Assembly: GCA_963169045.1 (NCBI GenBank)
Contig: CAUJDF010000029.1
Coordinates: forward strand, 62,001-126,000
Origin: Myxococcota bacterium
GTDB lineage: Bacteria > Myxococcota_A > Bradymonadia > UBA7976 > UBA1532
Length of the DNA: 64,000 nucleotides
Direction: 5' to 3'
The position numbers and the translations under genes are program-made. Under the pieces are notes generated by a model. The model worked only from the letters and a program-made list of their open reading frames with translations. It made no database searches and was not told the DNA's origin. Positions 27,474 to 36,925 of the stretch are shown piece after piece (position 1 is the first letter of the stretch; each line of letters starts with the position of its first letter).

Positions 27474-28121
27474 TCAACGGGTTGCGGTCGGATTCCCCAT
27501 TTTCTCCCCATTCTGGCGCTCGGGCGGCTGGACCCGGCGTGGACTTGGCGCGAGCGTGAACCCCACGGACTCGCCCGCACGCATCACGTCTCCGTCGGAG
27601 ATCGTCATTCCGGTACGCACGGATACAACGGCGGTCTTGTGGTCGTAGTCGACGGTCGCCGAAGCCACCCCGGCGATCTTCATCAACTCCGCTTCGAGCA
27701 ACCCCGTGCAGGCGCGGCAGTGCATCCCGCGGACCTCGTACTGTCGAACCTTTGCCGCGGCGTCGGCAGCGACGACATCATCGGCGAGGATCATGCCGGA
27801 CCAGGACGGGAAGGTCGCGAAGACGAGGACCACGAGGGCGCTCAGCCAGAGCGCGGCCCGGCCGATCCTTCGGAGGCGCGGGTCCGCCTCCACGCACCGC
27901 CCGTCGGCGGTGCAAGCCCGCTGCGGGCGGTAGGCGAAGTAGAAGGCCGCCGCCAACAACACCCCGGTCGTGATCAGCAGCGGCGTCCGGTACGCCTCGA
28001 ACGCAGCGGCCACCCCGCCGGCCGAGGCTCCGAGCCCAACGAGCAGCAGCGGAAGCCAACAACACGCCGAGCTGAGGATCGCGCCCAGGACGGCACCGCC
28101 GGCAAGCACGCCCTTCTTCAC
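27474..28121 (-). CDS. merTP: MerT-MerP fusion: mercuric ion permease plus Hg-binding domain
   Basis: A 215-residue membrane protein. The MerT part has three predicted helices; the first carries the vicinal cysteines in SSACCWLPLLLVGLG, a later loop has RACTADGRC. A C-terminal HMA domain reads YEVRGMHCRACTGLLEAEL, the MerP-type GMxCxxC site. It moves Hg(II) into the cytoplasm. The start is GTG, overlapping the thioredoxin-like gene by 4 bp. The last 14 or so residues (ERQNGEKMGNPTATR) are encoded by the att-like repeat and probably are not conserved. No merA is present in the window. Confidence 0.87.
   Translation of the reverse strand: MKKGVLAGGAVLGAILSSACCWLPLLLVGLGASAGGVAAAFEAYRTPLLITTGVLLAAAFYFAYRPQRACTADGRCVEADPRLRRIGRAALWLSALVVLVFATFPSWSGMILADDVVAADAAAKVRQYEVRGMHCRACTGLLEAELMKIAGVASATVDYDHKTAVVSVRTGMTISDGDVMRAGESVGFTLAPSPRRVQPPERQNGEKMGNPTATR
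27494..27512. repeat. Left candidate attachment repeat
   Basis: Reads TCCCCATTTTCTCCCCATT and matches 57969-57988 with a single-base length difference; flanking bases (GG before, CTGG/GTGG after) extend the similarity. Each copy contains the half-units CCCCATT twice. It lies inside the 3' end of merTP, which therefore reads through the repeat. Confidence 0.55.
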
Positions 28122-28444
28122 GCCGGCCTCGTCCCCGCCGCTCGGTCCACAGCCGAGAGGATGTCGGCGACCGACGGCGCGCCTCGGAGTCCTTGGTCGC
28201 TGAGGTAGACCCGACAGCAGTCGTCGGATGTGCCGCCTCCATGTCCGGTGACCTCCTCGCCGTTCACGAAGATGGTGGGCGACCCGTAGCCGGTCGCGTG
28301 ATCCGGCAGGGCGTCGATGCCGATCCGCCACTCCTTCCATTCGACCGGCAGCCCGGCCGCACGCAGCGCCTCGCGAAGGGCTTCTCGTGCGGCGTTGACG
28401 TTGGGACAGTCCTTGTCCCAGGTCAGCTCGATCTCGATGTTCAT
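28118..28444 (-). CDS. Thioredoxin-fold small protein of the mer operon
   Basis: A 108-residue protein with LTWDKDCPNVNAAREALREA, a single-Cys N-terminal site (DCPN), and YGSPTIFVNGEEV, the cis-Pro segment of thioredoxin folds, then DDCCRVYLSDQGLRGAPS. Similar small proteins occur beside mercury or arsenic genes. It lies between merR and merTP with 4-bp overlaps on both sides. A thiol-relay or Hg-binding role is inferred from position and the three cysteines, not shown. Confidence 0.72.
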   Translation of the reverse strand: MNIEIELTWDKDCPNVNAAREALREALRAAGLPVEWKEWRIGIDALPDHATGYGSPTIFVNGEEVTGHGGGTSDDCCRVYLSDQGLRGAPSVADILSAVDRAAGTRPA

Positions 28445-28848
28445 CGTGGTTCTCCTTCGAGCGCACGTAGGATGGGGCATTCGTCGGTCGCCCGCTCCGC
28501 CTGACACGCCTCCACCAATCCCCTGAGGGCGCGCTTGAGACTGAGAAGATCCGCGATGCGCGCTTCGACCTCGGCGATCTTGGCCTCCGCGCTTTCCCGC
28601 ACCGCGCCGCAGGCCTCTTCGGGCTGCACGCGCAGGTCGAGAAGCTCCCGGATCTCCCTGAGTGAGAAGCCCAGGTCCTTGGCGCGCCGTATGAAGGTGA
28701 GTCGACGAACCGCGGTCGACGGATACTGCCGATAGCCAGATGGGCGCCGTGGCGGTTCGGGGAGCAGCCCCTTGCGCTCGTAATAGCGGATCGTCTCGAC
28801 TCCGACTCCCGCCGCCTTGGCCACCTGCCCGATCGTCATCGACTCCAC
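28441..28848 (-). CDS. merR: Mercury-responsive regulator MerR
   Basis: A 135-residue MerR-family activator. The winged HTH is MTIGQVAKAAGVGVETIRYYERKG, with RRPSGYRQYP following. Cys80, Cys115 and Cys124 (EEACGAV, LVEACQAE, TDECPIL) have the same spacing (35 and 9) as the three Hg-binding cysteines of transposon MerR, so it should sense Hg(II). It is the first gene of the merR-thioredoxin-like-merTP operon, so it autoregulates from the promoter just upstream. The second Met (codon 4) is an alternative start. Confidence 0.92.
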   Translation of the reverse strand: MESMTIGQVAKAAGVGVETIRYYERKGLLPEPPRRPSGYRQYPSTAVRRLTFIRRAKDLGFSLREIRELLDLRVQPEEACGAVRESAEAKIAEVEARIADLLSLKRALRGLVEACQAERATDECPILRALEGEPR

Positions 28849-28867: not shown

Positions 28868-28898
28868 GAATACGGTCCGTACCAAGGTACGGAGTCAA
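28868..28898 (-). promoter_or_regulatory. mer operator/promoter
   Basis: On the minus strand TTGACT (28898-28893) is followed by the dyad CCGTAC-CTTG-GTACGG (28892-28877) and GTATTC (28873-28868), giving a 19-bp spacer (20 bp if TATTCT is used). Both the over-long spacer and the dyad are nearly identical to transposon mer operators, where MerR untwists the DNA. It sits 20 bp upstream of merR. Confidence 0.9.
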
Positions 28899-29004: not shown

Positions 29005-29058
29005 GTTTCCTTTTTGCCCCGCCTTTCCTCGCTGGGAAAGGTGGCGTATAAAGGAAAC
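29005..29058. promoter_or_regulatory. Concentric inverted repeat upstream of the AbiEi-like gene
   Basis: GTTTCCTTT (29005-29013) pairs with AAAGGAAAC (29050-29058), and inside it CCTTTCC (29022-29028) pairs with GGAAAGG (29035-29041). Both repeats share the centre 29031.5, and half of the intervening bases also match. The dyad ends directly at the ATG, so it must overlap the promoter or ribosome-binding region. AbiEi antitoxins repress their own operons by binding inverted repeats, which fits this element. Confidence 0.75.
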
Positions 29059-30096
29059 ATGCCGTCCGTGGAGTCCACCGCAACCCGTGAAATCCCCCAG
29101 CTCCTCCAGGGCTGGCTAAGTGCCCCGGTCGAGATCGTCGCGGAGACGGAGGGCGTCCGCGTGGACCTCGCGGTTCGGGGGCGGGGGCTGACCATCCTGG
29201 CCGAGGTCAAGCGCGCTGACGACGTGGCGCTGGTCGAGCAGGCGGCCCATGACCTCGAAGCCTGTACGAAGGGGCGGACCGACGCAATCGGCGTCCTCGT
29301 CGTCCCCTACATGGGGCCGAAGGCCAGAGAGTACGCCCGTGGTCGTGACCTCTCGTGGTTCGACCTCTCCGGCAACGCCGACATCCGCGGGCCGGGGCTT
29401 CGTATCCTCATCGACGGGAAGCCGAATCGCTTCGCCTCGCCCGGCCGACCGAGCACGGCCTTCTCGGACAAGGCGGCGCGCCTCAGCCGGGTGATGCTCG
29501 CCGAGCCCGAGCGGTGGTGGCGGCAGCACGAGCTGGTCGAGGAGACCGGCCTCAGCGCCGGCTACGTGAGCAAGGTCGTCTCTCGTCTTCGCGAGGACGG
29601 CCTCGTGGACGACGACCAGGCGGATGGTTCACTGCGTCCGCTCTCACCCGAACTCCTCCTCGACGCCTGGGCACAGGTCTACGACTTCCGCCGGCACGAC
29701 ATCACTCGGTATCACGCGGTCGGACGCACAGGCCCCGCCGTCGCAGAGGCGCTGGCCGAGCGCCTCGCCGAGCAAGGCGAGCTTCGTTGGGCCGCAACGG
29801 GGCTCACCGCGGCCTGGAGGATGGGGGGGTTCGCCGACCACCGGCTGGTGACCTTCTACGTGTCGATGCCGCTGACCGACCTCGATCCTCTGGGCCTTCG
29901 TCCCGTCGAGCGGGGCGAGAACGTCTGGCTGGTCGTCCCGCGGGACGAAGGCGTGTTCTACAAAGCAGAGGACACCTCGGGCCTTCGGTGCGTCCATCCC
30001 GTGCAGGTCTACCTCGACCTGCTCGGGCACCCCGAGCGGGCAAGCGAGGCCGCGCAGAACATTCGGGAGCACCATCTGCCCTGGAGCCGCGGATGA
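29059..30096 (+). CDS. AbiEi-like type IV antitoxin with nuclease-like N-terminus and winged helix
   Basis: A 345-residue protein. Residues about 25-110 show a PD-(D/E)XK-like pattern: VDLAVRGRG, then ILAEVKRADD (D...E-x-K), then a helix and strand, and LSWFDLSGNADI. A winged helix follows at about 150-190 (HELVEETGLSAGYVSKVVSRL). The C-terminal domain is of AbiEi type (DITRYHAVGRTGPAVAEAL). It overlaps the nucleotidyltransferase toxin gene by ATGA, antitoxin first, as in AbiE systems. ATG 29059 is used; GGAAAC precedes it only weakly. A catalytic role of the N-terminal fold is not shown. Confidence 0.78.
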   Translation: MPSVESTATREIPQLLQGWLSAPVEIVAETEGVRVDLAVRGRGLTILAEVKRADDVALVEQAAHDLEACTKGRTDAIGVLVVPYMGPKAREYARGRDLSWFDLSGNADIRGPGLRILIDGKPNRFASPGRPSTAFSDKAARLSRVMLAEPERWWRQHELVEETGLSAGYVSKVVSRLREDGLVDDDQADGSLRPLSPELLLDAWAQVYDFRRHDITRYHAVGRTGPAVAEALAERLAEQGELRWAATGLTAAWRMGGFADHRLVTFYVSMPLTDLDPLGLRPVERGENVWLVVPRDEGVFYKAEDTSGLRCVHPVQVYLDLLGHPERASEAAQNIREHHLPWSRG

Positions 30097-30929
30097 CAAA
30101 GCCCACCACCGCCGCAGGCTACGACATGGGGCTGGCCGGGGACGCCCGGCGGGTCTGCCTGTACGTCGCGACCATCCTCGGCGACCTCGCCGACGACCTC
30201 GTGGTCGTGGGCGGCCTCGTGCCGTACCTCGTCATCGACCAGGGGACGGCGACTGAACCGCACGTCGGGACCCGCGATCTGGATCTGGGCCTCTCGCTCG
30301 CCGTCCTCGACGACGAGCGGTATCGAGAGATCAGCAGTCGCCTGCGCGACCGTGGCTTCGAGCCTGGAACGAAGGACGAAGGGAAGATCACGAGGCAGAC
30401 GTGGGGTCTTCCCGGCACCCGGATCACCATCGACTTCCTGATCCCTCGCTCCGCAGGCGGTCCAGCGCCGGGGCGCCTCCAGAACCTGGAGGGAGACTTC
30501 GCCGCCATCGTGACCCCGGCATTGCCGTTGGCCTTCGAGGACTTCGAGCAGGTGGTCATCGACGACGTGACCCCGCCCGGCGAGCGGGCGAAGCGGACCG
30601 TTAGGGTCTGTGGTCCTGCGGCGTTCGTCGTGATGAAGGCCCACGCCCTGCGGTTGCGCGGCGAGAACAAGGACGCCTACGACCTCGTGTACCTGTTGAA
30701 GCACTACGACGACGGGACCACCGCGGTCGTGGCCGAACGGCTGCGTGGCCTGGCCACCTCCGACGAGGTGGAGCAGGCCGTGGCCATCCTCGACGAGGAC
30801 TTCGCGAGCCCCGACCATCTCGGCGCGACGCGGTGTGCCGAGTTCCTCACCGGACGCCGGGATGCCGCCGTGCAGGCGGACGCCTTCGGCTACGTGCAGG
30901 AGTTCCTGCGGCGCGTTCGACGACCATGA
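30093..30929 (+). CDS. AbiEii-like nucleotidyltransferase toxin
   Basis: A 278-residue protein of the nucleotidyltransferase AbiEii/AbiGii family: VVVGGLVPYLVIDQG (GG helix start), then HVGTRDLDLGLSLAV with the DxD metal site, ITIDFLIPRS with the third acidic residue, and KAHALRLRGENKDAYDLVYLL. AbiE toxins stop growth by nucleotide transfer, probably to tRNA, and limit phage. It is translationally coupled to the upstream antitoxin. Its stop lies 13 bp from the convergent integrase stop. Confidence 0.85.
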   Translation: MTKPTTAAGYDMGLAGDARRVCLYVATILGDLADDLVVVGGLVPYLVIDQGTATEPHVGTRDLDLGLSLAVLDDERYREISSRLRDRGFEPGTKDEGKITRQTWGLPGTRITIDFLIPRSAGGPAPGRLQNLEGDFAAIVTPALPLAFEDFEQVVIDDVTPPGERAKRTVRVCGPAAFVVMKAHALRLRGENKDAYDLVYLLKHYDDGTTAVVAERLRGLATSDEVEQAVAILDEDFASPDHLGATRCAEFLTGRRDAAVQADAFGYVQEFLRRVRRP

Positions 30930-30941
30930 AGACGCGCCGGG

Positions 30942-32078
30942 TCAGGCGTCGTCGTTGCCGTCGTCGTTGGGCCGAGGTTCTCGGCGGCGGGCAGCCCCGA
31001 GGCCGGCTTCGAGCGCGTCGTGCAGGTCGCCCGGGGCGACGGTCGAGTAGTGGCGGACCGCGGTAACCGCCGCGTGCCCCATCACCTTGGCGTAGCGGTC
31101 GAGCGGCACGCCCCCGTTGCGCAGGCGGTCGGCCACCGCACGCCGGATGTCGTGGAAGGTGAACCGGCGGACGCCAGCGGCGTCCTGGGCTTTGTAGAAG
31201 CGGTGACGCCAGTAGTGGTAGACGCGATCGACGGAGCAGGGGAACAGGGGGGCGTCGGGTGCGGTGGCCAGCTCCACGAGCTGCTTCATCAACTCCGGCG
31301 TGACGGGGACGCGCCTCGCCGACTCCGGGGTCTTCGGGACGAAGAGGTCGCGCTCCTGGATCACCACCAGCAGCTCGTCGGGGAGGAGGTCGCAGCCCCG
31401 TGTGGTCGCCGCCTCGGCGAACCGCATCCCCGTCACCCACAGGAGTTGAAGCATCACGTCGAGCGGGGCCTCCGCGTGCTCGATGGTCGCCGCCATGTCC
31501 TCGGCGTACAGCACCTCGTGCTGCGGGGCCGGCACGCGGAAGCTCGGGACCTTGGGCGGGTCGGAGACGAGCCCCTGCACCTCGGCCCAGCGCAGGATGG
31601 TCCGGGCGCCGATGAGCGCGTTCTCGATCGTCTGCGGCGAGTGCTTGCGCACGTCTCGAAGCCAGCCGAGGTACTGCTCGAAGGTGGCCTTGTCGAACTC
31701 CGCCACGGTCATCGAGGCGTTGGTCGCCTCGACGAAGGCCCGCAGCTTGCGCGCCCGGAAGATACGGTTCTCCTTCGTGCGCGGGCGCTTCGACATCGTC
31801 GGCACCATCTCGATGTACCGATCGATCACCGTCACGAGGCTGGCGGTCCCGTCCACCGGCGTCGGCGTGGCGCGGTGCTTCTCGACCCACGCGAAGAAGG
31901 CGTACTCGGCCGAGCGGTTCGAGCTGTGCCAGCCGAGGGACCACTCGCCCATCATGCCCTTCTTGCGGCACCGGACGGTCCAGTACGACTCCTCGACGCC
32001 GTCCACGGTGCGCTTCGCTCCGCGGGGCCGGGCGGTGTACTCGTAGGCCCGGAACTCGGTCCTGCGTCGCCGGGCCAT
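30942..32078 (-). CDS. Tyrosine recombinase/integrase
   Basis: A 378-residue integrase. A SAM-like core-binding domain (about residues 80-165) precedes the catalytic domain with Arg219 (WVTGMRFAEA), His309 and Arg312 (FHDIRRAVADRL), His335 (VMGHAAVTAV) and nucleophile Tyr344 (RHYS). It probably integrates and excises the element at the bracketing repeats. The start has AAGGAGG upstream, and its ATG overlaps the stop of the excisionase-like gene (ATGA). The open frame continues upstream inside that gene and is not used. Confidence 0.92.
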   Translation of the reverse strand: MARRRRTEFRAYEYTARPRGAKRTVDGVEESYWTVRCRKKGMMGEWSLGWHSSNRSAEYAFFAWVEKHRATPTPVDGTASLVTVIDRYIEMVPTMSKRPRTKENRIFRARKLRAFVEATNASMTVAEFDKATFEQYLGWLRDVRKHSPQTIENALIGARTILRWAEVQGLVSDPPKVPSFRVPAPQHEVLYAEDMAATIEHAEAPLDVMLQLLWVTGMRFAEAATTRGCDLLPDELLVVIQERDLFVPKTPESARRVPVTPELMKQLVELATAPDAPLFPCSVDRVYHYWRHRFYKAQDAAGVRRFTFHDIRRAVADRLRNGGVPLDRYAKVMGHAAVTAVRHYSTVAPGDLHDALEAGLGAARRREPRPNDDGNDDA

Positions 32079-32389
32079 CACGCCACCTCCTTGGCCTTCT
32101 CGCGGAGGCGGTCGAGCACGTCGCCCCACCGATAGATGAGCCGGCCGTTCGGGTGCCACAGGGCCGGCACCTCCCGAAGCCACCGCCGGGTGACGGAGGA
32201 GCGGCCACCGAGGAGCCGGACGACCTCCTCGGCGGACAGGAGGGCGTCGGCCGAGACGGTGTGCCGCAGCACGGTGATGTGGGGGCCGCGGTCGGCGCGG
32301 TCGAACGGCGGGATCTGGATGAAGCCGTCGCTCTCGTTCTCCTGCTGGTCGGGCGGCGACGGCGCGATGGGTGCGGCTGAGCTGCGCAC
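32078..32389 (-). CDS. Excisionase-like HTH protein
   Basis: A 103-residue protein. The N-terminal 40 residues are disordered and acidic. Then LLSAEEVVRLLGGRSSVTRRW, VPALWHPNGRLIYRWGDVLD forms the winged-helix 'helix-turn-helix 17/excisionase' pattern. The GTG start is chosen because AAGGAGG lies seven bases upstream. It is coupled to the integrase, and one copy of the repeated promoter-like motif lies 34 bp upstream. A recombination-directionality factor role is inferred from the partner gene. Confidence 0.72.
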   Translation of the reverse strand: MRSSAAPIAPSPPDQQENESDGFIQIPPFDRADRGPHITVLRHTVSADALLSAEEVVRLLGGRSSVTRRWLREVPALWHPNGRLIYRWGDVLDRLREKAKEVA

Positions 32390-32825: not shown

Positions 32826-33455
32826 GTGACCACCAGCCAGGCGGCCAGGGCCGCGCTCTACGCCCGCGTCAGCACCAGCAACCACGGGCAGGATGTCGGC
32901 CTTCAACTCGACGAGCTTCGGCAGGTTGCCGGACAGCGGGGCTGGCACATCGTGGAGGAGTTCGTCGACGAGGGCGTCAGCGGCTCCGCCGAGTCCCGGC
33001 CGGCCTTGGATCGGATGCTGGAGCAGGCCCGCCGGGGCAAGCTCGACCTCGTGGTCGTCTGGAAGCTCGACCGCCTCGGGCGGAGCCTCCAGCACCTCCT
33101 CCAGGTGCTCGACGAGTTGCAGCACCAAGGCGTCGGGTTCGTCTCGGTGCGGGACGCCGGCATCGACACGACCAGCCCGTCGGGGCGCCTGCTGCTCCAC
33201 CTGCTGGGCGCCTTCGCCGAGTTCGAGAGGTCGATGATCCGGGAGCGCGTCGTGGCCGGGGTCCGTCGCGCACAGTCGAAGGGCAAGCACTGCGGGCGCC
33301 CTCGGGTCGAGTTGGACCTCCGCCCCGCCACGTCAATGCTCGACGCCGGCTACGGCCTCAAGGCGGTCGCATCGAGCCTCGGCATCAGCAGGACCACGCT
33401 CCGCCGTAGGCTGGAGGAAGCCGGCGAGTGGCCGCGCCCTCATCACGCGGCCTGA
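32826..33455 (+). CDS. Serine recombinase (resolvase/invertase family)
   Basis: A 209-residue protein with catalytic Ser16 in LYARVSTSNHGQDVGLQ, then VSGSAESRPALDRML, LVVVWKLDRLGRSLQ, the E-helix GAFAEFERSMIRERV, and a C-terminal helix-turn-helix (GLKAVASSLGISRTTLRRRL). Length is that of Tn3 resolvases and DNA invertases, not large integrases. GTG start with GGAGGAGG upstream. It ends 13 bp inside the convergent antitoxin gene. It may resolve dimers of an excised element or invert DNA; the GAGAAC array is its likely site. Confidence 0.92.
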   Translation: MTTSQAARAALYARVSTSNHGQDVGLQLDELRQVAGQRGWHIVEEFVDEGVSGSAESRPALDRMLEQARRGKLDLVVVWKLDRLGRSLQHLLQVLDELQHQGVGFVSVRDAGIDTTSPSGRLLLHLLGAFAEFERSMIRERVVAGVRRAQSKGKHCGRPRVELDLRPATSMLDAGYGLKAVASSLGISRTTLRRRLEEAGEWPRPHHAA

Positions 33456-33934
33456 TTCCAGCCCCCATCAGACGGGCTGAACTTCACCGGGCCGGCCTCG
33501 CCCTCGTCGTGGAGGCGCGGGAACACGTCTTCGGCGAAGGTCGCGGACTCCGGTGCGAGCTTCTGGTGGATGAGCAGGCGTAGAAGGCGCTCGGCGACCT
33601 TCCCCATCTTCTGCTTGCCGTTCTCCCAACGGGAGAGCGTCTTGGCGTCCACGCCCATCACGTTGGCCATGTCCTCGGCCGACTTGTCGAGCAGCTTGCG
33701 GAGGAACCGGACCTCTTCGGGGAGGAGGGGCCGGTCCGCCTCGACGATGTTGAGCGCCAACAGCCGGTGCAGCCCCTCCGGGTCGGGGATGGTCACCGTC
33801 TCCTCGCCGCAGGCGGAGCACCGTTCGATGGGGACGCCGACGAGGACCACCGGGTACGGCAGCCCGGCCACCTCGTACTCGTGGATGCCCTGGAGGACCT
33901 CCATCTCAGCCTTGCCGCACTCGTAGCACTTCAT
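33443..33934 (-). CDS. MqsA/YgiT-type zinc finger plus HTH antitoxin
   Basis: A 163-residue protein. The zinc site is CYEC (Cys3, Cys6) and CSAC (Cys39, Cys42), as in YgiT/MqsA. An XRE-type HTH follows (SAEDMANVMGVDAKTLSRWENG). It is second in a toxin-first operon, 11 bp after the DUF4258 gene, the MqsRA order. The ATG at 33934 is favoured by AAGGAG six bases upstream; an ATG five codons earlier is possible. It probably binds the palindrome at 34261-34275. Confidence 0.84.
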   Translation of the reverse strand: MKCYECGKAEMEVLQGIHEYEVAGLPYPVVLVGVPIERCSACGEETVTIPDPEGLHRLLALNIVEADRPLLPEEVRFLRKLLDKSAEDMANVMGVDAKTLSRWENGKQKMGKVAERLLRLLIHQKLAPESATFAEDVFPRLHDEGEAGPVKFSPSDGGWNQAA

Positions 33935-33945
33935 GTCGTTCTCCT

Positions 33946-34257
33946 TCATCGTCGCCGGTACACCGTGTGGGCCTGGAGGCGGTCCTCGCTCACGATGACG
34001 ACGACCACGTTGACGCCACGCCGGTGGGGCGGCGCGTTGCCGGCCCGCTCCACGACGCGGTAGCGCCACTCGCCGTTCCGCACGTAGGGCGGGCAGACCA
34101 TCTCGGGGTTGCGCAGCATCCGCACGATGTCCAGCGCATCCAGCCCCCGCTGCTTCATGCGGGTCAGGCAGTGGGACCGGAAGGCGACGCCGGTGGGCGC
34201 CAGGGCGATCCGCTGGATCACCCGTTCGGCGTCGGCCATCGTGAGTGGATGCTCCAT
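33946..34257 (-). CDS. DUF4258 toxin-like protein (MqsR-like position)
   Basis: A 103-residue protein with SHCLTRMKQRGLDALDIVRML, WRYRVVER and VVVIVSEDRLQAHTVYRRR, the DUF4258 pattern (small RelE/MqsR-like fold). With the YgiT-type antitoxin directly downstream it is a probable mRNA-interferase-type toxin; enzymatic action is inferred. The upstream palindrome leaves only three bases before this ATG, so the transcript may be leaderless or start at the ATG at 34239 (MADAERV). Confidence 0.75.
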   Translation of the reverse strand: MEHPLTMADAERVIQRIALAPTGVAFRSHCLTRMKQRGLDALDIVRMLRNPEMVCPPYVRNGEWRYRVVERAGNAPPHRRGVNVVVVIVSEDRLQAHTVYRRR

Positions 34258-34260
34258 CAG

Positions 34261-34275
34261 GTGACATAATGTCAC
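34261..34275. promoter_or_regulatory. Palindromic operator GTGACATAATGTCAC
   Basis: A perfect 7-1-7 palindrome three bases upstream of the toxin ATG. Its centre contains CATAAT, a plausible -10 on the plus strand, and ACATTAT on the minus strand. It fits autoregulation by the antitoxin. Confidence 0.75.
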
Positions 34276-34473
34276 CTTGGGCCGGGGCGGGCAAGGTCCG
34301 GTTCGCGACGGGGTCCACAACCCCCTCCGCCGTCGGCCGCCCGGGACGGGTCCACAACCCGTGTCCGGCAGGGTGGCCGGAACCACCTGCTTGTGGCCAG
34401 CGGCAGAGGTCGTGCTCCGGGGCGAGGACCGACCGGCGAGACCAGCCGCCGGTCGGCCGCATGCAAATCCTCT

Positions 34474-35161: not shown

Positions 35162-36925
35162 CTACGCCGCGTCTCGGTCGGAGGCATTCTCGTCGGCCGA
35201 CATGCTCAGCCGGAGGTCGGGCAGTTCGTCCGGCGGCGTGATGGCCGCGAGACGGGTGCGCGCCCCCGCCGCGTGCTCGGCGTGCAGTTCGACGCCGACA
35301 CCGCGGCGCCCGAGTCCCACCGCGACCTCGACGGTGGTGCCCGAGCCGACGAAGGGATCGAGGACGGTGCAGGGGACCGGCGCACCTGCATTGCAGGAGC
35401 AGGAGGGGGACCATCCGGTCGTGGTGAACCACTGCATGTTCTTCCACTTCTTGACGCCCCCCACGTCCACGTACCCGGGCTTGTCTGCGTGAACGACGCG
35501 GCGGTATGGCGCCTCACAGGCGGGGCAGCAGCCACCAGCAGAGGTGGCGGCTGTGATGCACCGCCGCACCAGTTCCGGGGGGAAGGGCGCAGCGTGGCCT
35601 CCCCGGTCGCCTCGTGTCGCGCTGAGTCGCCACACGTCCGTGCCCCTACACAGTCCACCGTGATCCGACATCTGCATCAGGGGCCAGTCGTCGTAGTAGC
35701 AGCCGCCCCCCTTCGGGGTGATTACGAACACCACCTCGGTCGTGTCGCGGATACGGGTCCTCGGGGACGAGGGCCGGGGGTTGGGCTTCTCCCAGGTGAT
35801 CCGGTTGCGCACGGTCCAGCCGTCGTCGATGAGGGCGAGGGCCACCTGGTCGGGCACCAGCGGGAGGCTCCCCTTGGAGGGGGTGTCGGCCAGGTTCAAC
35901 CACACGCTGCCGTCCGGCCGCAGCACCCGGCGAATCTCGCGGAGAACTCCCACGAGGTGCTCGACGTACATGTCGACGGTCGGTTCCTGTCCGAGTTCCC
36001 CCCACCACGCACCGCACCGGCACTGCTTGTCGGAGTTCCACTCGTGGGAGCAGTCGGCGTCGCCTCCCCAAGCGACCGGGTTGGTCCCGAAGTCGCGGAG
36101 CCGGTAGTAGGGCGGGCTGGTCACGCAGGCGTGGACACTGCCATCCGCCAGCTCGCGGAGCCGGTCCAGAACATGCCCGTCAAGAACCTGGTAGCGGTCG
36201 GACACCGGAAGCCGCTGGGTGGGCGGATGCGACGCCGTCTGCGTCGCACGGTTCGCACTGCGCCCGTGCCGGCGGATACGAAGGGCATCACGAAGCGCAT
36301 CGGGATCTCCGGCCGACGCGGCGAGCACTGCGGTGCGATCCTCCCTGTCGAGGACCGCCAGCTTCTTCGCGTCGGCCAGGTTCTTGATCTTGCCCGCCAG
36401 CATCGCGTCCAGAACGTCTGAGGCCTGCGCCTGGATGCGCTTCGCCTGGCGAACGGACTCACCGCTGACGCCGACGCGCTTGCCGGCGAGGGCCGTCGCT
36501 TCGCCCTTCCGACCCTGCCCAACGGCTTGGGTAGGGTCGGCCTTGCCCGCCAACATTCGCTTGCGGGCCAAGTTGGCCTCGAACGGGTGCAGCCGTACCG
36601 CGAGCGCGGCTCTCTGGGCAGTGGTGAGGTGCCGCCGCATCAGGTTGCGCGACAACAGGAGCGCGAGCGCCTCGTCCTCGTTGCCCTCGAAGACGGTGTA
36701 CTTCACCGGGACGCCGAGGGCGCGGCAGGCCGCGTAGACGGACCGTCCGTCGAGGATGCGGCCCTCGTAGAGCAGGATGGGCACGGCCTGACCGTTGGCG
36801 CGGATGTCATCCTTGAGGTTCTTGCACTCCTGCTCGCTCGGAGCCGGGAACAGGCCCGCCAGCGGGTGAGGGACGAGGTCGTCCGTGGTGACGAGGTGCG
36901 TGGTGCTGTCGGGTGCCGTGACCAT
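35162..36925 (-). CDS. ParB-like domain fused to beta-class DNA methyltransferase (copy 1)
   Basis: A 587-residue protein. The ParB/Srx N-domain has VPILLYEGRILDGRSVYAACRA (about 48-70) and SRNLMRRHLTTAQRAALAV (92-110), followed by an HTH-like stretch RVGVSGESVRQAKRIQ. The methyltransferase part has motif IV TSPPYY (269-274) before motif I LDPFVGSGTT near residue 530, the permuted beta order; Cys pairs (CCPACE, CSCN) suggest a metal site. TSPPY fits N4-cytosine or N6-adenine activity. It has a paralogue at 41692-43551. No cognate nuclease is adjacent, so it is an orphan methylase of the element. Confidence 0.88.
   Translation of the reverse strand: MVTAPDSTTHLVTTDDLVPHPLAGLFPAPSEQECKNLKDDIRANGQAVPILLYEGRILDGRSVYAACRALGVPVKYTVFEGNEDEALALLLSRNLMRRHLTTAQRAALAVRLHPFEANLARKRMLAGKADPTQAVGQGRKGEATALAGKRVGVSGESVRQAKRIQAQASDVLDAMLAGKIKNLADAKKLAVLDREDRTAVLAASAGDPDALRDALRIRRHGRSANRATQTASHPPTQRLPVSDRYQVLDGHVLDRLRELADGSVHACVTSPPYYRLRDFGTNPVAWGGDADCSHEWNSDKQCRCGAWWGELGQEPTVDMYVEHLVGVLREIRRVLRPDGSVWLNLADTPSKGSLPLVPDQVALALIDDGWTVRNRITWEKPNPRPSSPRTRIRDTTEVVFVITPKGGGCYYDDWPLMQMSDHGGLCRGTDVWRLSATRGDRGGHAAPFPPELVRRCITAATSAGGCCPACEAPYRRVVHADKPGYVDVGGVKKWKNMQWFTTTGWSPSCSCNAGAPVPCTVLDPFVGSGTTVEVAVGLGRRGVGVELHAEHAAGARTRLAAITPPDELPDLRLSMSADENASDRDAA

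Follow-up and report, generated by a model that had tools for sequence, protein, structure and literature searches.

An AbiE-type toxin-antitoxin locus with a putative four-half-site operator and a predicted nuclease-fold domain in its antitoxin

The gene pair and its toxin

In the 64,000-nucleotide stretch of Myxococcota DNA analysed here (the window), an antitoxin gene is followed on the same strand by a toxin gene, both reading frames being open and the two overlapping in an ATGA at 30093-30096 (Table 1). The antitoxin matches the Pfam family AbiEi_2 (PF09952) at residues 196-339 (E 8e-9, 36.4 bits against a cut-off of 21) and the toxin matches AbiEii (PF08843; E 2.4e-8, 34.7 bits against a cut-off of 22.5). 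Pfam also gives a sub-threshold match to NucS_C at antitoxin residues 41-104 and weak winged-helix matches (MarR_2/DUF7343) at residues 155-187. No NCBIfam model reached its cut-off for either protein, and PADLOC gave only weak matches for the pair.

Table 1. Positions of the genes, protein domains and promoter features (window coordinates)
Feature	Position	Strand	Details
Antitoxin gene	29059-30096	+	345 aa, AbiEi_2/COG4861 type; ATG 29059
Toxin gene	30093-30929	+	278 aa, AbiEii (PF08843) nucleotidyltransferase
N-terminal domain, PD-(D/E)XK fold predicted	29059-29418	+	residues 1-120; D36, E49, K51 present
Winged helix, MarR-like	29446-29679	+	residues 130-207; recognition helix about 167-179
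C-terminal AbiEi_2 domain, likely antitoxic part	29644-30075	+	residues 196-339, PF09952
54-bp concentric dyad, putative abiE operator	29005-29058	.	repeat geometry, conservation, single genomic occurrence
Outer left half-site TTTCC	29006-29010	+	direct reading; four-site scan
Inner left half-site TTTCC	29024-29028	+	-35 position; TTGAC in the TTGAC clade
Inner right half-site GGAAA	29035-29039	-	direct reading; four-site scan
Outer right half-site GGAAA	29053-29057	-	1 nt before ATG
-10-like TATAAA (inferred)	29047-29052	+	17 nt after -35 position; 6 nt before A of ATG

PF09952 corresponds to COG4861 according to a table in PMC7251935, and it is by their PF09952 and PF08843 matches that the window proteins are placed in COG4861 and COG4849. 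The domains, the gene order and overlap, nucleotidyltransferase motifs I-IV and inverted repeats over the promoter are all present; judged from its sequence, the locus is an AbiE-type toxin-antitoxin system with two cistrons in one operon, within the COG4861/COG4849 branch. The available text of PMC3985639 names this pairing and that of PMC7319586 places Rv0837c in COG4861. By PF09952 and PF08843 the window pair falls in the same class as Rv0837c-Rv0836c (MenAT2).

PF09952 was found once in the bacterium's own genome (9.0 Mb in 109 contigs), and of the 377 genomes searched in the phylum, 67 contain antitoxin relatives. The distance from antitoxin end to toxin start lies between -23 and +18 nt in 39 of the 50 rows with a toxin relative, a count that includes the window's locus twice (L001 left in), and is -4, i.e. 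ATGA, in 11. Elsewhere L001 (the same locus as L004) and L005 (the same as L002) were dropped, as were L014, L022 and L032, in which no start was called; the short proteins L003, L041, L042, L049 and L103 were left out of the long-protein alignments. Plasmid relatives were sampled as regions from 15 of 37, 9 of 18 and 3 of 26 records. The search of viral contigs for relatives gave none with P0001 alone or with A4, two with A1 and one with A3; an AbiE pair of the same family lies on an IMG/VR viral contig (L102, 1934-3815), with TTCAC/TTTAC half-sites before its ATG.

The toxin retains its motif residues intact in the window, i.e. G40, T60-x-D62-x-D64, D114, K182, R189 and K193-D194-x-x-D197. 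Across 37 aligned toxin rows (35 of them distinct, the window's toxin being counted three times) G40, D62, D64, D114, K182, R189, K193, D194 and D197 are present throughout, and position 60, which we take to be the counterpart of the phosphorylated Ser78 of MenT3, is Thr in 32 and Ser in 5. These residues fit the DUF1814 nucleotidyltransferase motifs I-IV as defined in the accessible part of PMC3985639, and MenT relatives extend tRNA acceptor stems according to the portion of PMC10435456 available; by analogy, the window toxin may be a MenT-like nucleotidyltransferase acting on tRNA ends. For Rv0836c (MenT2), the one toxin paired with a COG4861 protein that is discussed in the literature examined, overexpression is described as without detectable effect, which speaks against the toxin-antitoxin reading.

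Inspection by eye of three relatives found the toxin reduced or replaced: in L002, where operator and antitoxin are kept, just a short toxin-like start follows (after 4041), and in L006 (after 2520) and L031 (after 2499) another gene stands in the toxin's place. Repression may therefore serve something besides toxin control, the antitoxins of all three being possible orphan repressors.

The promoter dyad

The arms of the dyad (29005-29028 and 29035-29058) are 24 nt each, 83% complementary and 6 nt apart, and its last base directly adjoins the ATG. The initial annotation had read the locus as an AbiE-type pair, which the Pfam matches over cut-off bear out, preceded by two inverted repeats that share a centre at 29031.5 and end at the start codon. 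Both repeats are indeed there, and inner and outer repeat prove to be one and the same 5-mer (TTTCC TTTCC/GGAAA GGAAA, spaced 18-11-18 nt), with all four half-sites letter-perfect in the window. Within each arm the two copies of the word are direct repeats, and among relatives the rest of the arms drifts while the word recurs.

Of 34 close relatives (full-length, E <= 1e-40, window among them), 16 reach a four-site score of >=27/30 at this fixed geometry and eight, window included, reach the full 30, whereas none of 6800 dinucleotide-shuffled upstream regions scored >=27. The score falls below 27 in the other 18, L038 being no better than its own shuffles (p 0.54); in these either the half-sites have diverged, or the geometry or start codon is mis-called. 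The word varies by clade (TTTCC in the window's clade, elsewhere TTTAC, TTCAC, TTGAC or TTGAA) while the 18-11-18 geometry is kept, the pattern to be anticipated were a single protein to read all four. At least four exact copies of some TTNNN word lie near the start in 29 of 80 relatives, where 2.9 would be expected. The four-site pattern, allowing at most 3 mismatches in 20, was found once in the 9.0-Mb genome, and because of this single occurrence the operator looks dedicated.

The dyad is thus probably a four-half-site operator through which the antitoxin represses its own operon. Negative autoregulation, which the initial annotation had suggested, is the likely use of such a promoter dyad by analogy with two antitoxins for which others have shown it: AbiEi, which binds two 23-bp inverted repeats cooperatively (PMC3985639, text available in part), and Rv2827c, which binds four sites with negative cooperativity (PMC7319586, likewise in part). 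The partial accounts in these two papers also allow the layouts to be compared. As in AbiE of Streptococcus agalactiae (COG5340-COG2253; PMC3985639), a gene for a winged helix-turn-helix (wHTH) antitoxin precedes a DUF1814 toxin gene, and inverted repeats, in that system with autorepression, cover -35, -10 and +1. By contrast, S. agalactiae AbiE has two 23-bp repeats (23-3-23) and a ribosome-binding site, whereas in the window the word occurs twice per arm and leads directly into the start codon. In Mycobacterium tuberculosis, Rv2827c-Rv2826c (MenAT4; PMC7319586) likewise has four repeats upstream of a DUF1814 toxin operon, there bound by the antitoxin; however, the MenAT4 antitoxin belongs to COG5340 and the repeats are of 23 bp, arranged as tandem pairs (13-bp and 4-bp gaps) in 131 bp, compared with four 5-bp words in 52 bp in the window.

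Promoter elements were considered in 31 loci, L037 (mis-registered) and L038 and L039 (score under 18) being left out. Among the offsets compared, TTGACA is matched best at the inner left half-site, and the six bases ahead of the last half-site, 17 nt further on, read TATTTA in 11 loci, TATAAA in 4, TATATA in 2 and variants in the rest, i.e. TAT[TA][TA]A in 17 of the 31. On average TATAAT is matched best 2 bases further on, the -10 position being accurate to 2 nt. A strict sigma-70 scan gave no promoter in the window. A transcript starting 7 nt past such a -10-like box would have its 5' end at or beside the ATG, i.e. a leaderless mRNA is predicted. In 26 of the 31 loci the last half-site and the ATG are separated by 0-4 nt; in the other five, where the operator sits 11-23 nt upstream, the best matches to AGGAGG are 5, 4, 4, 4 and 2 of 6, as against 2-4 elsewhere, a hint, though not proof. 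No Shine-Dalgarno-like stretch was seen by eye before the ATG in TTGAC-clade sequences; the GGAAAC of the window could serve as a weak one.

Domains of the antitoxin

In the VIA comparison of the full-length antitoxin most rows concern the wHTH and few cover the N-terminal domain, which for that reason was folded separately. The model of residues 1-142 alone, from a 5-row alignment, has a pLDDT of 78.8 and a pTM of 0.74. The top five PDB chains returned for it by Foldseek are all archaeal EndoMS/NucS (2vld_A, E 1.6e-4), and in VIA it matches PaqCI (Z 10.3, rmsd 3.0, 112 residues), AF1548 (1y88; Z 10.0), NucS (8.8) and EndoMS (8.7), with XisH, Cdn1 and Can2 close behind; the VIA matches include the PD-(D/E)XK effectors Can2, Card1 and NucC. 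A sequence search found no solved structure of the antitoxin family. The domain is predicted, on the strength of this model, to have the alpha-beta core of the restriction-endonuclease (PD-(D/E)XK) fold, in agreement with the PD-(D/E)XK-like N-terminus that the initial annotation had noticed. That annotation had also held the protein to be unlike minimal AbiEi, and a predicted nuclease-fold domain does stand ahead of the wHTH; such an extra domain is, though, usual in the family, among 93 rows chosen at >=310 aa, and not peculiar to this locus. In a single archaeal relative (L003, 222 aa, start as called) the protein begins at the winged helix and has no N-terminal domain. The two-domain AbiEi of COG5340 consists of an N-terminal wHTH and one C-terminal domain, an arrangement from which the window antitoxin departs, with its wHTH at residues 130-207; in the text available of PMC3985639, the wHTH of S. 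agalactiae AbiEi is N-terminal and a nuclease-fold domain is not described, whereas the wHTH of the window antitoxin is central.

The VDLAV...AEVK stretch picked out at the outset comprises D36 and E49-V-K51, all three acidic and lysine residues being kept in the window protein; from the motif and the modelled strands 37-41 and 44-50, these would be the catalytic positions. Their conservation is poor. D36 is present in 72, E49 in 56 and K51 in 48 of 93 relatives, the full triad in 36 (window included), and the triad changed at least 23 times on the 93-row tree; in a smaller set it is found in 33 of 80 relatives (window included), with 21 changes, and is kept in 11 of the 15 plasmid loci of that set. 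The nearest relative, L002 (68-69% identical), has G-V-N instead of E-V-K, with operator and antitoxin kept. The constant part of the domain is a D-L-S/T-G-N motif (D102-x-x-G105-N106), which in the model sits at a strand end and turn: D102 occurs in 93, G105 in 92 and N106 in 86 of the 93.

The D...E-x-K expected of an active PD-(D/E)XK enzyme family is thus not conserved across the 93 relatives, and a catalytic nuclease as the function of the family is rejected on this ground. The DNA-acting catalytic role that had been proposed is not supported, given the free variation of D36, E49 and K51, the very finding that the initial annotation had named as counting against it. The window copy, having all three residues, may itself be active. 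For the family, we infer that a nuclease-fold domain has been reused for a non-catalytic task, such as contact with protein or nucleic acid, or sensing via D-L-S/T-G-N. NucS/EndoMS, PaqCI and Can2 are nucleases with a fold like that predicted for residues 1-120; by contrast with these, the antitoxin family has no conserved catalytic residues and is fused to a wHTH and AbiEi_2. The available part of PMC10584680 concerns a different EndoMS-like family, in which the active site is invariant and some members are labelled AbiEi.

Residues 130-207 resemble MarR-like winged helices (VIA, Z about 10); the model puts the recognition helix at 167-179, and residue 166 stands at its N-terminal end. In shuffle-corrected mutual information with operator base 3, this residue ranks first among 345 columns in 31 loci, and again among 325 columns in the 42 usable of 80 loci, a ranking that ignores shared ancestry. 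Among the 44 usable of 93 loci, base 3 is G with Asp166 (11 of 11) and Asn166 (1 of 1), and T or C with Ser, Thr or Pro166 (31 of 32), the one exception being L110, a Streptomyces plasmid locus with Ser166 and TTGCC; in the 31-locus set there are two Ser166 loci with G, and Gly166 goes with G in 3 of 3. Usable loci are those with at least 3 exact copies of a TTNNN word that agree at base 3, a rule set after the alignments were seen and failed by 38 of the 80 and 49 of the 93 loci. On trees built without the columns under study, independent contrasts number 2 (starred) and 4 at most; none is discordant and a sign test is not significant. The 13 loci added between the 80 and 93 sets brought one exception (L110) and zero further contrasts. 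With 2-4 independent contrasts, shared ancestry alone could explain the link between residue 166 and base 3.

A full operator code was dropped, only base 3 having a recognition-helix residue as its top column; the top columns for bases 4 and 5 lie elsewhere and therefore no code is claimed for them. The Streptomyces plasmid loci L107-L112 and L114 have TTGCC words in most cases, with Ser166, contrary to the base-3 rule, and one of them, L110, satisfies the word-count rule; they are annotated as hypothetical or helix-turn-helix proteins, and a hypothetical gene is next, in the toxin's place.

Proposed mechanism, alternatives and genomic setting

The explanation that best accommodates these observations, and which we regard as probable, is an autorepressing AbiE-type operon with a four-site operator, a leaderless start, a MenT-like toxin and a repurposed nuclease fold. 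The central winged helix of the antitoxin would read the 5-bp word, and the four words, at 18-11-18 nt, would span the promoter from the -35 position through the spacer and the -10-like box up to the ATG; as the sites cover promoter and start, several antitoxin protomers, perhaps as an oligomer, would shut the promoter. Repression would set the level of antitoxin plus toxin, and a short supply of antitoxin would release promoter and toxin together, from an mRNA starting without a leader at or beside the A of the ATG. The C-terminal domain would carry antitoxicity, the toxin would block translation by extending tRNA ends, and the N-terminal domain would make a non-catalytic contact with protein or nucleic acid, or sense a signal; cutting fits less well than sensing, or than contact between protomers across sites 18 nt apart.

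It may alternatively be that the antitoxin is an active enzyme cutting DNA or RNA, perhaps phage DNA, with the wHTH directing or restraining the N-terminal domain. The predicted fold, the presence of D36, E49 and K51 in the window protein and of the full triad in 36 of 93 relatives, and the restriction or helicase genes that adjoin several plasmid relatives are in its favour; however, the >=23 changes of the triad, its loss in L002 where operator and antitoxin are retained, the position elsewhere of the best-conserved residues of the domain (D102, G105, N106) and the absence of the domain from L003 make such an enzyme unlikely. A sharper form of the preferred autorepression model, in which the N-terminal domain senses a ligand or signal, with D-L-S/T-G-N as the sensing site, and upon infection frees the antitoxin from its DNA or its toxin, is possible, if somewhat doubtful: the constancy of D102, G105 and N106 against a variable nuclease site and the structural matches to the effectors Can2, Card1 and NucC are consistent with it, but the motif may be purely structural, given its place at a strand end and turn. 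In Can2 and Card1, the ligand is sensed by a separate domain.

That the dyad acts chiefly as an RNA hairpin at the 5' end, serving as attenuator or terminator and not as an operator bound by protein, would account for a long inverted repeat upstream of the ATG, but is highly improbable, since the -10-like box lies within the right arm, leaving most of the dyad untranscribed, and the word is repeated directly in each arm and recurs while other arm parts drift. An ordinary diverged AbiE locus, inactive and with repeats that are mere remnants, is suggested by the toxin remnant or replacement in L002, L006 and L031; against this, the window has intact toxin motifs, two open frames and four letter-perfect half-sites, so that inactivity is very unlikely here.

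For autorepressing operons of this kind, a wider proposal can be put forward tentatively, namely that COG4861 antitoxins are three-domain repressors, in which a PD-(D/E)XK fold has turned into a non-cutting sensor round the invariant D-L-S/T-G-N motif, acting on an operator of four 5-bp words at a leaderless start codon through an evolvable code whereby residue 166 picks base 3, with Asp selecting G, and Ser, Thr or Pro selecting T or C. In the text available of PMC3985639, PMC7319586 and PMC11375011, COG4861 proteins appear as putative regulators or antitoxins and an N-terminal nuclease fold or operator goes unmentioned. No description of either in the COG4861 branch was recognised in the literature searched, though one may exist elsewhere. 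The detail that appears new is the four-site operator at a predicted leaderless start, with clade-specific words, together with the nuclease fold carrying a different conserved motif. In the literature as far as examined, biochemical work on the COG4861/COG4849 half of the AbiE family is almost absent, and the locus offers a testable architecture: a nuclease-fold domain that has lost its active site in most members and kept another motif, and a fourfold operator with words that vary by clade. Natural antitoxin-operator pairs with different words make a DNA-recognition code testable by a one-residue swap, and searching for the operator may bring unannotated members to light, e.g. the Streptomyces plasmid copies.

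The genes around the operon may in part belong to a mobile element. Upstream lie, on the opposite strand, genes for a MerR-family regulator (28441-28848, closely preceded at 28876-28893 by the 8-bp inverted repeat TCCGTACC/GGTACGGA) and a MerT/HMA-domain protein (27474-28466), a mercury-resistance-like cluster to judge by its genes, transcribed away from the AbiE operon. Downstream, a tyrosine recombinase gene (Phage_integrase; 30942-32183, minus strand) faces the toxin gene and ends 12 nt past its last base, adjoined by a serine resolvase/invertase gene (32826-33455, plus strand); no tRNA gene that could be an integration site was found in the window. Together, the mercury-like cluster, integrase and resolvase suggest a mobile island. 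Further on, at 33443-34386 on the minus strand, there may be a second toxin-antitoxin pair, composed of an MqsA-like antitoxin, whose match falls just short of the cut-off, and a DUF4258 protein, also below its cut-off. The same strand carries a gene for a DNA methylase (N6_N4_Mtase; 35162-36925) with, by eye, a ParB-like N-terminus. Six plasmid copies of the AbiE locus (L074, L077, L078, L082, L085 and L115) adjoin genes for a TrlF-like ATPase, DUF4297, a DEAD/DEAH helicase, a restriction endonuclease or other ATP-binding proteins, surroundings that look like defence-island settings.
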